49,155 nucleotides of DNA. Source: Deltaproteobacteria bacterium (lineage in GTDB: Bacteria > Desulfobacterota_D > UBA1144 > Nemesobacterales > Nemesobacteraceae). Under the pieces are notes generated by a model. The model had not been told where the DNA came from and ran no database searches. It saw only the letters and a program-made list of their open reading frames with translations. Position 1 is the stretch's first letter; each line of letters starts with the position of its first letter. The position numbers and the translations under genes are program-made. The DNA lies in the NCBI GenBank assembly GCA_029262295.1, contig JAJCZR010000076.1, forward strand, positions 1-49,155, in the 5' to 3' direction. This document shows positions 1,446 through 13,424 of this stretch, piece by piece.

Positions 1446-1462
1446 GCGGAGAGCGAGGGATT
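1446..1462. repeat. Left direct repeat, copy of tRNA-Ser 3' end
   Basis: GCGGAGAGCGAGGGATT is identical to 1816-1832. It corresponds, on the minus strand, to the 3' strand of the T-arm and the acceptor stem of tRNA-Ser. Identity stops after this stretch, so this is a fragment and not a second tRNA gene. Confidence 0.85.
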
Positions 1463-1463
1463 T

Positions 1464-1486
1464 CCTTCGACTAGGCTCAGGACAGG
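1464..1486. repeat. CCTGAGC...GTCGAAGG-type dispersed repeat motif
   Basis: On the minus strand the motif reads CCTGTCCTGAGC followed by CTAGTCGAAGG. From memory, this string belongs to a dispersed intergenic repeat type common in many environmental bacterial genomes, where its translation gives CHPELVEG-like peptides. Here it sits between the end of the GIY-YIG gene and the duplicated tRNA fragment, so it forms part of the inserted unit. Only one copy was noticed in this window. Confidence 0.55.
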
Positions 1487-1524
1487 CTTCTCATCCAACA
1501 CAACCACAACAAACTTTAATTAAT

Positions 1525-1777
1525 CTAATACTTACTACTTTTTTCAACCAAAGATTTTTTCTTTTCAAAAGACCATCCTTTTAGCTGCTTTTCTCTTTAT
1601 TATTGCTTCCTTTTCAGTTTCGTATTCTTCAGTGTAAACAAGTTTTAGCATTTCAAATCTTTTAGTATATCTCGATTCTTTTCTCATATGTTTTGCAATT
1701 CTACCTTCAAGGTTTTTTGTTATACCAACATAGTAAGACTCACTATCACAGAGCAAAATATATAAATGCCATTTCAT
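1525..1777 (-). pseudogene. GIY-YIG nuclease-like protein (UPF0213/YhbQ type), frameshifted
   Basis: The protein starts MKWHLYILLCDSESYYVGIT, where YIL and YVG are the GIY-YIG signature pair, and continues with the conserved Arg of LEGRIAKH. As read, it stops after 70 residues (stop at 1565) with an atypical tail, KRKAAKRMVF. Removing one A from the AAA run at 1596-1598 (minus strand) restores REKQLKGWSFEKKKSLVEK and a stop at 1525-1527. That is the usual family C-terminus and gives about 83 residues. The break is therefore a single-base frameshift: a true mutation, a recoding event or a sequencing error. The gene lies between direct repeats of the tRNA-Ser 3' end. A possible -10 (TATAAT) is at 1799-1804, but no matching -35 is seen, so it may be read through from the tRNA. 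Confidence 0.8.
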
Positions 1778-1815
1778 GAAAAAAGTTAAATCAGAAGTAT
1801 TATATTAATTTAAGT

Positions 1816-1832
1816 GCGGAGAGCGAGGGATT
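1816..1832. repeat. Right direct repeat within tRNA-Ser 3' end
   Basis: Exact 17-bp partner of 1446-1462. It covers one base beyond the discriminator, the acceptor 3' strand and part of the T-arm, which is a usual attachment position for elements that integrate into tRNA genes and leave the tRNA intact. Confidence 0.85.
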
Positions 1833-1899
1833 CGAACCCCCATGCCCGTTAGGACGCCTGTTTTCAAGACAGGTGCATTAGCCGTTCTGCCAGCTCTCC
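1817..1899 (-). tRNA. tRNA-Ser(UGA)
   Basis: The minus strand folds as a class II tRNA. The acceptor GGAGAGC pairs with GCTCTCC and is followed by discriminator G, as expected for serine. The D-arm reads GCAGAACGGCTAATGC. The anticodon stem CCTGT/ACAGG holds the loop CTTGAAA with anticodon TGA. A long variable arm follows, then the T-arm with TTCGAAT. CCA is not encoded. The anticodon reads UCA and related serine codons. The 3' end is repeated at 1446-1462. Confidence 0.93.
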
Positions 1900-9772: not shown

Positions 9773-12154
9773 TTGATTGATAGCACTAATATAATTTTTT
9801 GCAGTAGCGATAGAAAGGCTCAAGATTACATGGAAGATTTTATTAATTCTTCAGTAATCTCACAGTACAGGGTCTCCTCCTTTGATGATATACCTTCTAA
9901 CCTCAAGAAAAAAAATCTCAACCTGATCATCCTCGAGATAAATGAGGAAAACACAAATAGAACAGGGCTCATTAAAAAAATGGAACGATCAGAGAACAAC
10001 ATCAAATCGATCCTGTTGGTAAAATCTGAAAAAGTTCTGGAAAGCATAGAAGCAAGCCTCAAAAAAAATGAGCTCGACAACTATCTGGTAAACCCCTACA
10101 GAAAAAAGCACCTTGAAGAACTGATAAAAAAATTAAATAGTGAGTTTATTCAAAACAATGGCGAAAAAGATGCTTCAACAAAAAGAATTGAAATAAAAGA
10201 AGAACCTCATAAACAAAATAGTTCTGAAGCATCTGAAGCAATTATTAATGAGAATAAAGAGATCCTAAAACAAGAAAAGATTGTACAGCAACCAGCAGAA
10301 GAACAAAAAATTGCACCCAAGACCACTATACAAATTGATGACCTTACAGAAAACTCTCCTCTTATTATTTTTACCATTAAGGAAAATAAATTTACTTTTG
10401 CAAACAAAAAAGCTGCTCAGACCTTTGGATATACAAAAGAAGAGCTTTTAAATACCAATCCTGCAAATCTTATATCCAAAAAGGAGCTGCGTGATGCTTT
10501 GGTTGGAGTTAAAGAACTGACAGGCACAGAAGAGAATACAAAGAAAATATCAATACAGCTTAGAACAAAAAAAGATGAAAAAGCAGTTGTTGAAGGTGAG
10601 TTAAGATATAAACCTGATTCGGATACATTTCAGTTTTATTTATCTCAAATTGGCACTTCCGAGCAAAACTCAGAAGAAAACCTAAGGCTTGCAGCTGCTG
10701 TAAAAAGTATTAACTCCGCTATCACTATTACTGATACAGATAGAAATATTATTTATGTTAACCCTACTCACAAAGGAATTTTTGGATATGATCCGGAAGA
10801 ACTTATAGGTAGGTCAAGCAAGGTACTTTATCCCTCCCAGGATCCTACTGGTGTGAGCGAAAAAATATATGATGCAGTCTTTTTACTCGGATGGCAGGGC
10901 GAGAGAATAGCAACAAAAAAAAATGGTGATGTTTTCCCTGTTTATGAGAAGACTTCTGCTATAAAAGGGGCAGATGGAAAAGAAATTGGGATTGTATCAG
11001 TGCAAGACGACATTACCCAGAGAAAAAGGCTTGAACAGGCACTAAAAGAATCTGAAGAGAAATATAGGACACTGATAGAAACTGCCAGCACACCTGTTAT
11101 TACAGTAAATGACAAAGGAATTATCAATCTTTTTAACCCTGCCGCAGAAAAACTTTTTGAATATGAAGATGAAGAAGTTATAGATAAAAATATAGTTGAA
11201 TTTATTTCAAAAAATTTCAGAAAACATTTTGAAGATGGTTTTAACAAAGATAATGAAATTGATATCTTGCACTATATTGAAAACACAATGGAGATTAAGG
11301 GCCTTAAAAAAGGCGGAGATGAATTTCCAATGGAAGTATCAATCTCCAAATGTAAAATTGAAGGGAGAGAAGTATTTACAATAATTATCTTTGATATAAC
11401 TGAGAGAAAAAACCTTGAGCAACAGCTTTTACAATCAGCAAAACTTGCCGCTGTGGGGGAACTAATCTCAGGGGTAACACATGAAGTGAATAACCCACTT
11501 GCAGTTGTGCTTGGTTATTCAGAAATGTTGATCCAGGAGCATGAAGCGGATGAAGAACTCCTAAAAATTGTTAAGATTATTCATAGTGAATCAGAACGTG
11601 CAAGAAAAGTAATCCACAACCTTCTTTCTTTTGCAAGGCAGCATAAACCAGATAAAGAATTAGTAAAAATAAATGAAGTAATTGACAACACCATCTCACT
11701 TACAGAATACGATCTTCGTAAACATAAAATAGAGATTGAAAAAAATTACGATGAATCACTTCCAAGCATCCTTGCCGATCCAAATCAGCTTCAGCAGGTA
11801 TTCCTAAACCTTATTATTAATGCACAGCATGCAATCGCTGATCAAAAAAATCCGGGTAAAATAATAATATCAACCGGAAAATCTGATGGCTCAGATCATG
11901 TAGAGATATGCATTGAGGATAGCGGGCCTGGAATACCAGAAAAGATTTTGGAGAAAATATTTGATCCTTTTTTCACAACAAAACCAGTTGGAAAAGGCAC
12001 AGGACTTGGGCTTTCAGTGTCATTCGGGATAATTGAAAGACATTCGGGGAGAATAAGTGTTGAAAGCGAAGAAGGGAGGGGAACAAAATTCCATATTGTT
12101 CTTCCGCTTGACACTACCCCTAAAGACCAAACAGAAGATGAAGCTTTCAGCTAA
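9773..12154 (+). CDS. Multi-PAS sensor histidine kinase with degenerate receiver-like N-terminus
   Basis: A 793-residue NtrB-like kinase without membrane segments, so cytoplasmic. Order: receiver-like domain 1-125, a charged linker, PAS domains at about 190-300, 305-420 and 425-545, then the HisKA dimerisation domain with the phospho-acceptor His in [10 protein letters not shown] (about 573), and the ATPase domain with [24 protein letters not shown] and GTGLGLSVS. The receiver-like domain has Glu55 where the phosphorylated Asp is expected, Ser11-Ser12 in the acidic pocket, and Asn in place of the conserved Lys (LVNPY), so it should not accept phosphate. The start is a TTG with AAAGG upstream. 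No partner response regulator is adjacent. Its 3' end overlaps serS tail to tail by 8 bp. Confidence 0.92.
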
Positions 12155-13424
12155 TTGTCTTTACACCATTCATATACGGAATTAATACACGAGGGATTTC
12201 AATTGAACCATCTTCTTGCTGATAGTTTTCAATTATAGCTATCACTGCCCTTCCCACTGCTACGCCAGATCCGTTTAAAGTATGCAAAAGGGAAGGTTTT
12301 GGTTCTTTAAATGGTTTGTATCTAATATTTGCCCTTCTAGCCTGAAAGCTCCCAAAATTACTGCATGAAGAGATCTCTCTGTATCTTCGTTCACTTGGCA
12401 CCCACACTTCAAGGTCATAAGTTTTAGCAGAAGAAAATCCTAAGTCACCTGAACAAAGTGCAACAACCCTGTATGGAAGTTCAAGTAACTCGAGAATCCT
12501 GGATGCATCATTCGTGAGTGCTTCAAGCTCACTATATGAATCTTCAGGTTTAGAAAACTTTACGAGTTCAACCTTGTTAAACTGATGCTGACGCATAATA
12601 CCATGTACATCCTTTCCATAAGATCCAGCCTCTTTTCTAAAACATGGTGTATATGCAACATATTTGACAGGAAGATCTTCAAAACTCAAAATTTCATCTC
12701 TGTGAATATTGGTTACCGGCACTTCTGCAGTAGGGACAAGGTAGTACTCTGTATCCTTAAGTTTAAAAAGATCTTCTTCAAACTTGGGGAGGTTTCCTGT
12801 GCCAGTAAAGCTATCTTTGTTTGCCACAAATGGGGGCAGAACTTCAGTGTAACCGTGATCCATTGTATGAACATCAAGCATAAAATTAATTAAGGCTCTC
12901 TCAAGCCTGGCACCGAGCCCTTTATAAAGGGCAAATCTTGAACCTGCAATTTTAGTTGCCCTTTTGAGATCAAGAATATCATGCTTCTCACCAAGCTCCA
13001 CATGATCTTTTATTTCAAATTCAAAATCTTTTGGCTCCCCCCATTTCCTGACTTCTACATTATCATTTTCATCTGAGCCTAATGGCACCGAATCATTTGG
13101 AATATTGGGGATTTGCAAAAGAAACTGATTTAGTTCACTTTCGGCATCAGATCTTTTTTCATTCAGGTTTTTAACTTTTTCGGAAATTACTTTTAGCTCT
13201 TCCATCAGGGCATCAAGTTCGCCTGTATTTCCTTCCCTTTTAAGTTTTCCTATCTGTTTTGAACCTTTATTTTTCTCACTTTCAAGCTGCTCAACTTCTT
13301 TGATTATTTCCTTTCTGTTTGATACAAGTTTATTAAAACCCTCAAGATCAAACTTCATTCCCCTGGATGATAGTTTTTCTTTTACCAATTCATTATTTAG
13401 TTCAATAAATTTAGGATCAAGCAT
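12147..13424 (-). CDS. serS: Seryl-tRNA synthetase
   Basis: This class II synthetase charges tRNA-Ser with serine. The N-terminal coiled-coil arm that grips the long variable arm spans about residues 30-105. The catalytic core shows [15 protein letters not shown], motif 2 as [15 protein letters not shown], and motif 3 near [18 protein letters not shown]. The length of 425 is usual. AAGGA precedes the ATG. Its substrate tRNA-Ser(UGA) is encoded elsewhere in this window. The gene converges with the histidine kinase and shares 8 bp with it, with no terminator visible between them. Confidence 0.98.

Follow-up and report, generated by a model that had tools for sequence, protein, structure and literature searches.

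Small GIY-YIG nuclease genes between outward-facing REP hairpins, with a probable decayed copy beside a tRNA-Ser gene

Results

The tRNA-Ser(UGA) locus and its GIY-YIG gene

Within the window (the whole stretch of DNA analyzed, 49,155 nucleotides), a GIY-YIG gene lies next to an intact tRNA-Ser(UGA) gene. The locus is composed of the following parts:

1446..1462 (-): second copy of the tRNA-Ser(UGA) 3' end, joined to a dispersed repeat; the same arrangement is found at tRNA-Ser(GCU), contig C38 of the source genome G000
1464..1486 (+): one member of the dispersed CTTCG..CTCAG (CTGAG..CGAAG) repeat family, CCTTCGACTAGGCTCAGGACAGG
1513..1533 (+): inverted repeat, downstream arm ACTTTAATTAATCTAATACTT
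1525..1596 (-): displaced C-terminal coding segment in another frame, REKQLKGWSFEKKKSLVEKSSKY and a stop (REKQLKGW..KSSKY, then stop)
1565..1777 (-): GIY-YIG ORF with a frameshift close to its C-terminus, 70 aa in the assembly; PF01541 match
1795..1815 (-): inverted repeat, upstream arm ACTTAAATTAATATAATACTT (gene sense)
1513..1815 (-): putative GIY-YIG unit of about 303 bp, bounded by the two inverted-repeat arms and abutting the tRNA end at 1816
1816..1899 (-): intact tRNA-Ser(UGA) (ARAGORN; RF00005 match)

As the original prediction had stated, the 17-bp sequence GCGGAGAGCGAGGGATT is present in two exact copies (1446-1462 and 1816-1832; 17/17 bp identical), and the right copy is the 3' end of the tRNA-Ser(UGA) gene. 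The enclosed GIY-YIG ORF matches PF01541 with 50.9 bits (cut-off 22.6). It is the only ORF of at least 50 aa lying wholly between the two copies, in line with the original prediction that nothing else able to mobilize the stretch is enclosed. A Pfam scan detected no integrase among 25 other ORFs of the window, immediate neighbors included, and no HUH Y1 transposase in the scanned window ORFs. Compared with integrative elements at tRNA genes, the far-boundary duplicate of the tRNA 3' end is present, and an integrase gene inside is absent. The seryl-tRNA synthetase gene is located at 12147-13424, about 10 kb from the tRNA-Ser gene; the neighborhood is otherwise ordinary chromosomal.

The gene is flanked by an imperfect inverted repeat of its own (core 19/21), with the upstream arm between the tRNA end and the gene and the downstream arm past the gene. 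Dinucleotide shuffling gave p = 0.001 and 0.0005 with two scorings. This repeat is AT-rich and modest, and the window copy has no canonical hairpin ends. The unit at 1513-1815 would be an insertion that separates the tRNA end from the dispersed repeat.

The ORF is frameshifted ahead of a conserved REK motif, as REKQLKGW and the natural C-terminus are encoded in another frame. A check of the catalytic residues found the GIY-YIG domain match present and the REK segment out of frame. All three residues of REK, as well as the K of K.W, are unchanged throughout the family alignment A1 (ten members), and the spacing in other GIY-YIG enzymes suggests that the E of REK is the catalytic glutamate. Judged from the assembled reading frame, the protein should be inactive; the frameshift is possibly a sequencing error in the draft genome.

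The tRNA-Ser 3'-end duplication

We examined 37 tRNA genes of the source genome (2.2 Mb, 83 contigs) for duplicates of their 3' ends. The last 16 nt are exactly repeated within 700 bp downstream at two of them, tRNA-Ser(UGA) and tRNA-Ser(GCU), the latter on contig C38; the other 35 carry no such duplication. Because only these two genes, both tRNA-Ser, show such a repeat, the 17-bp duplication is not due to chance. The tRNA-Ser(GCU) locus (C38:3319-3480) reads tRNA, about 48 bp, and a second copy of GAATCCCTCTCTCTCC. At both loci, the closely similar sequence GGATGAGAAGCCTGTCCTGAGnnnnnCGAAGG precedes the duplicate, and the CTGAG..CGAAG repeat is joined to it; among 58 genomes of the phylum, this fusion of tRNA-end duplicate and repeat occurs in two places only. 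The two tRNA ends differ at one base, where each duplicate agrees with its own tRNA, which speaks for duplication in place at both genes, or for conversion afterwards, rather than for import from one element.

The tRNA-Ser 3'-end duplication is a feature separate from the nuclease, found at two tRNA-Ser genes of this genome. The original prediction had taken the tRNA 3' end as the attachment site of a minimal mobile unit. The exact 17-bp duplication around the gene speaks for this, but tRNA-Ser(GCU) carries the duplication and the repeat with no nuclease gene, the inverted repeat of the gene sits inside the enclosed stretch, and related GIY-YIG genes are not near tRNAs. We rejected the model on the tRNA-Ser(GCU) locus and the survey of 37 tRNA genes and consider it extremely unlikely. 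Wide occurrence of the fragment without a nuclease gene had been named beforehand as contrary evidence, and tRNA-Ser(GCU) in the same genome comes near to this. The recurrence of such genes beside tRNAs, stated in the original prediction, did not hold either: Only five tRNAs lie in 719 kb around 80 related genes, none of them close, and a general link between GIY-YIG genes and tRNAs was rejected on this count. The suggested search for empty sites covered 29 tRNA-Ser(UGA) loci of order-mates. Two with less than 10 bp past the tRNA end were not counted as a test; the remaining 27, from order-mates that are distant, lack the GIY-YIG gene, the repeat, and the duplicate in the available sequence past the tRNA 3' end.

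The duplications may also be attR scars of a tRNA-targeting integrative island that lost its interior, with the GIY-YIG unit landing later in one of them. The geometry is textbook-like, and the arm sequence beside the duplicate is common to the two tRNA-Ser genes. The agreement of the differing base within each pair favors local duplication, however, and the scan of 25 other window ORFs gave no integrase. We regard such a lost island as possible, although rather less likely than its absence.

The dispersed CTGAG..CGAAG repeat

The repeat fused to the left 17-bp copy belongs to a dispersed family. The pattern CTTCGnCnnnnCTCAGnnCAGG has 11 matches in the source genome and 29-68 in seven order-mates, against 0-1 for the reversed-pattern control. 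At 1464-1486, the DNA fold is no better than that of shuffled sequences; set against the criteria for CGTC REPs, the repeat of the window has no YGTC tag and no stable stem. Elsewhere in the source genome (L010, L013, L014, and L015), the CTTCG..CTCAG core often lies in the loop of a larger palindrome, ATCCTGAA..TTCAGGAT, giving nested hairpins, and a TGTC tag adjoins those at L010 and L015. In genomes with the dispersed repeat, many of the small GIY-YIG genes are directly flanked on both sides by inverted palindromic repeats.

Small GIY-YIG genes between outward hairpin pairs

Using an alignment of ten small GIY-YIG proteins, 80 loci from many phyla were fetched. The query set was picked after the flanks in the phylum of the window had been seen, and the loci were chosen by similarity to it. 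Three tests were applied: The upstream flank was aligned locally to the downstream flank in reverse complement; hairpins made of a YGTC tag and a stem were detected in the flanks and counted against control window pairs and neighboring genes; and the small GIY-YIG loci of the window's phylum were examined as well.

In many phyla, two REP hairpins whose YGTC tags point away from the gene enclose small single-domain GIY-YIG genes. In flank counts that ignore relatedness, 60% of 78 GIY-YIG genes reached an inverted-repeat score of 14 or higher; among 1378 control window pairs drawn from these loci, the share was 0.15%. Outward-tagged YGTC hairpins are present on each side of 59/75 GIY-YIG genes compared to 1/1058 control window pairs (related sequences counted as independent) and 7/341 neighboring genes. 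The orientation in these 75 loci is biased, with 62/75 upstream flanks carrying the hairpin in sense and 30/75 in antisense, and 69/75 downstream flanks carrying the mirror form compared to 27/75. The 33 small GIY-YIG loci of the window's phylum agreed with this, at 58% (control, 1.0%). Regarding the minimal mobile unit without an integrase that had been predicted, the repeat-bounded appearance of small GIY-YIG genes supports this part, but the boundaries are inverted REP hairpins and not tRNA fragments.

The hairpins agree with the CGTC REP definition, as an unpaired CGTC or TGTC tag is located at one end and head-head dimers have the tags outside. Past the stem, most of the listed flank alignments, in an informal reading, continue as ..nATCCA, and in the window's phylum often as TCTA. 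The proteins have about 80-110 aa, and representatives match PF01541 only; the GIY, YIG, R, H, E, and N positions are invariant in the ten aligned members. With respect to RAYT/IS200-type criteria, representatives contain no HUH Y1 transposase, and the tags are YGTC with no GTAG tag. N. gonorrhoeae, S. meliloti, and A. lipoferum possess small GIY-YIG genes, and in N. gonorrhoeae, the gene adjoins CGTC REP pairs. A counter-example is the GIY-YIG gene on a Rhizobium tumorigenes plasmid (L183), which has no flanking repeat. At five loci (L004, L078, L079, L080, and L084), the flanking repeat itself encodes C-terminal residues of the GIY-YIG ORFs. A Parcubacteria contig contains three small GIY-YIG-like stretches in 5 kb (L127:2449-7380).

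Hairpin class, nuclease clade, and REP copy number

Hairpin class is paired with nuclease clade. On the nuclease tree of the phylum, hairpin class changes six times (minimum 5; shuffled mean 16.4; 0/200 shuffles as low), where the classes were defined on these same loci and loci fitting two classes were assigned to the first. The window protein groups next to the CTGAG/CGAAG clade on a long branch (support 89), in agreement with the occurrence of that repeat next to the window gene.

The REP GTCATnCTGAAnnnnnTTCAGnATCT (GTCATnCTGAA..TTCAGnATCT) is present in 19/21 genomes of the phylum with small GIY-YIG genes and in 4/37 without them (hand tally). The exceptions are four genomes with the REP and no detected small GIY-YIG gene and two with the gene and not that REP class. 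The source genome contains 27 copies and six small GIY-YIG genes; the 14 sister-genus relatives in the same family have neither a copy nor a short-frame GIY-YIG gene of this kind.

Presence and absence at orthologous sites

In related Bradyrhizobium chromosomes and Sphingobium plasmids, one and the same site occurs with the gene, without it, or with a solo hairpin.

Bradyrhizobium: Thirteen fetched genomes carry the gene at an intergenic site A, in either orientation. In L177, site A is without the gene, which is found 4 kb away at site B. Site B in the other genomes read holds nothing, other sequence, or short REP pairs. At L177:957-1140, site A without the gene contains a long palindrome, GTAGGATGG..GATGGGTTTCGC, which looks like a different repeat class.

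Sphingobium: The plasmid-borne gene has fnrL on one side and a response regulator on the other and is enclosed by perfect 31-bp inverted repeats. Related plasmids are without the gene; in TomTYG74, a single hairpin is found at this position.

Flavivirga: At L169:4936-6380, a hairpin/GIY-YIG/hairpin unit of about 505 bp occurs three times in tandem, and two of these copies have an in-frame stop.

No exact empty site was obtained, and no clean target-site duplication was found in Bradyrhizobium, Sphingobium, Shinella, or Rhizobium, where the flanks are too diverged or covered by other REPs.

Discussion

We observed an association of small GIY-YIG genes with REP hairpins, the outward orientation of the tags, the breadth of this arrangement over phyla, the correspondence of hairpin class and nuclease clade, and variation in presence and absence at orthologous sites. 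From these observations, we think it probable that the small GIY-YIG nuclease acts on the REP hairpins flanking it and spreads gene and repeats, and that the window gene is a decayed copy of this widespread single-domain nuclease (COG2827/UPF0213-like). The nuclease would recognize cognate REP hairpins, as single strands or as cruciforms, and cut them. The unit would be copied when the cut is repaired or replicated, and the gene would spread together with the repeats. Units bearing the gene would be autonomous, with pairs lacking it and single hairpins as non-autonomous derivatives; the window copy would have arrived by the same route. RAYTs are thought to spread GTAG REPs likewise, and non-autonomous derivatives have been proposed for them. 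A broader claim, for which we see the chances as evenly balanced, is that single-domain GIY-YIG nucleases are the missing mobilizing enzymes of the CGTC REP superfamily and its sister hairpin classes. The repeats would be spread independently of RAYTs, by elements of about 300-500 bp that require no transposase or integrase.

The main rival is homing. A free-standing GIY-YIG homing gene would cut gene-less REP pairs and be copied in by homologous repair, and the REPs would be landing sites spread by another enzyme. GIY-YIG is a classic homing nuclease domain (PMC1564403), whole REP pairs are found beside the gene in Shinella, Bradyrhizobium (L152/L177), and N. gonorrhoeae, and relatives show gene-less REP pairs or a solo hairpin at the same sites. 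Homing alone accounts neither for the pairing of hairpin class with nuclease clade nor for the missing REP in most gene-less genomes, and we judge it unlikely. Mobilization of hairpins by the nuclease and homing both predict specific cutting; they differ in whether new REPs need the nuclease.

Alternatively, the small GIY-YIG protein could be a domesticated repair enzyme that processes REP cruciforms and is kept beside REPs without being mobile. Structure-specific relatives are present within the GIY-YIG superfamily. One COG2827 gene of Caulobacter has an SOS box (PMC1839093). Such a host function fits poorly with genes that are present or absent at orthologous sites, occupy one site in two orientations, stand in tandem, carry in-frame stops in some copies, and occur several times per genome; we consider it quite improbable.

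CGTC REPs occur predominantly as head-head dimers and apparently have no dedicated transposase (Di Nocera 2013, PMC3733652). Their hosts include Neisseria, S. meliloti, A. lipoferum, and Caulobacter crescentus, and the superfamily takes in Neisseria dRS3 and Rickettsia RPE-4 and RPE-6 (PMC3733652). Caulobacter crescentus has three small COG2827 genes, the role of which is unclear (PMC1839093). Neither palindrom nor COG2827 occurs as a term in the GIY-YIG survey PMC1564403. Our search of the literature on GIY-YIG with REP, REPIN/RAYT, or COG2827, with preprints and most subscription papers outside it, found no report of a link, and the novelty of the GIY-YIG/REP link is not certain.

CGTC REPs are found in many bacteria, Neisseria (dRS3) and Rickettsia among them, and are described as being without a dedicated transposase. 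With a candidate nuclease marked by position, orientation, and co-phylogeny, their spread becomes directly testable. If the proposal is true, a new nuclease class would join the few enzymes that run a whole mobile element alone, the common small COG2827 gene family of unknown function would gain a role, and bacteria would have had a second, RAYT-independent route to genome-wide palindromic repeats.

Comparison with known systems

UPF0213/COG2827 proteins: The small GIY-YIG proteins are related to this family by profile search. The solved entries BH0048 (1ZG2) and EF2693 (1YWL) are hypothetical proteins without an assigned role.

I-TevI-type GIY-YIG homing genes: The GIY-YIG catalytic core is shared, and selfish spread is plausible for both. 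The genes described here differ in encoding about 80-110 aa with the GIY-YIG domain only, in not having been seen within an intron, and in being bounded by hairpins.

CGTC REP superfamily: Common features are the CGTC/TGTC tag, a stem starting with AT, the CCA tail, and head-head dimers with tags outside. Here, however, a GIY-YIG gene fills the spacer of the dimer, whereas no dedicated transposase was found for the superfamily (PMC3733652); the repeat of the window itself differs in having no tag.

RAYT/REP systems (REPtrons, REPINs): In both cases, inverted palindromic repeats, their tags outside, lie on either side of a small nuclease gene, the same repeats without the gene are dispersed genome-wide, and repeat and enzyme are paired in a class-specific manner. 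The enzyme is a GIY-YIG nuclease here and an HUH Y1 transposase there, and the tag is YGTC here (a CTGAG/CGAAG hairpin in one clade) and GTAG there.
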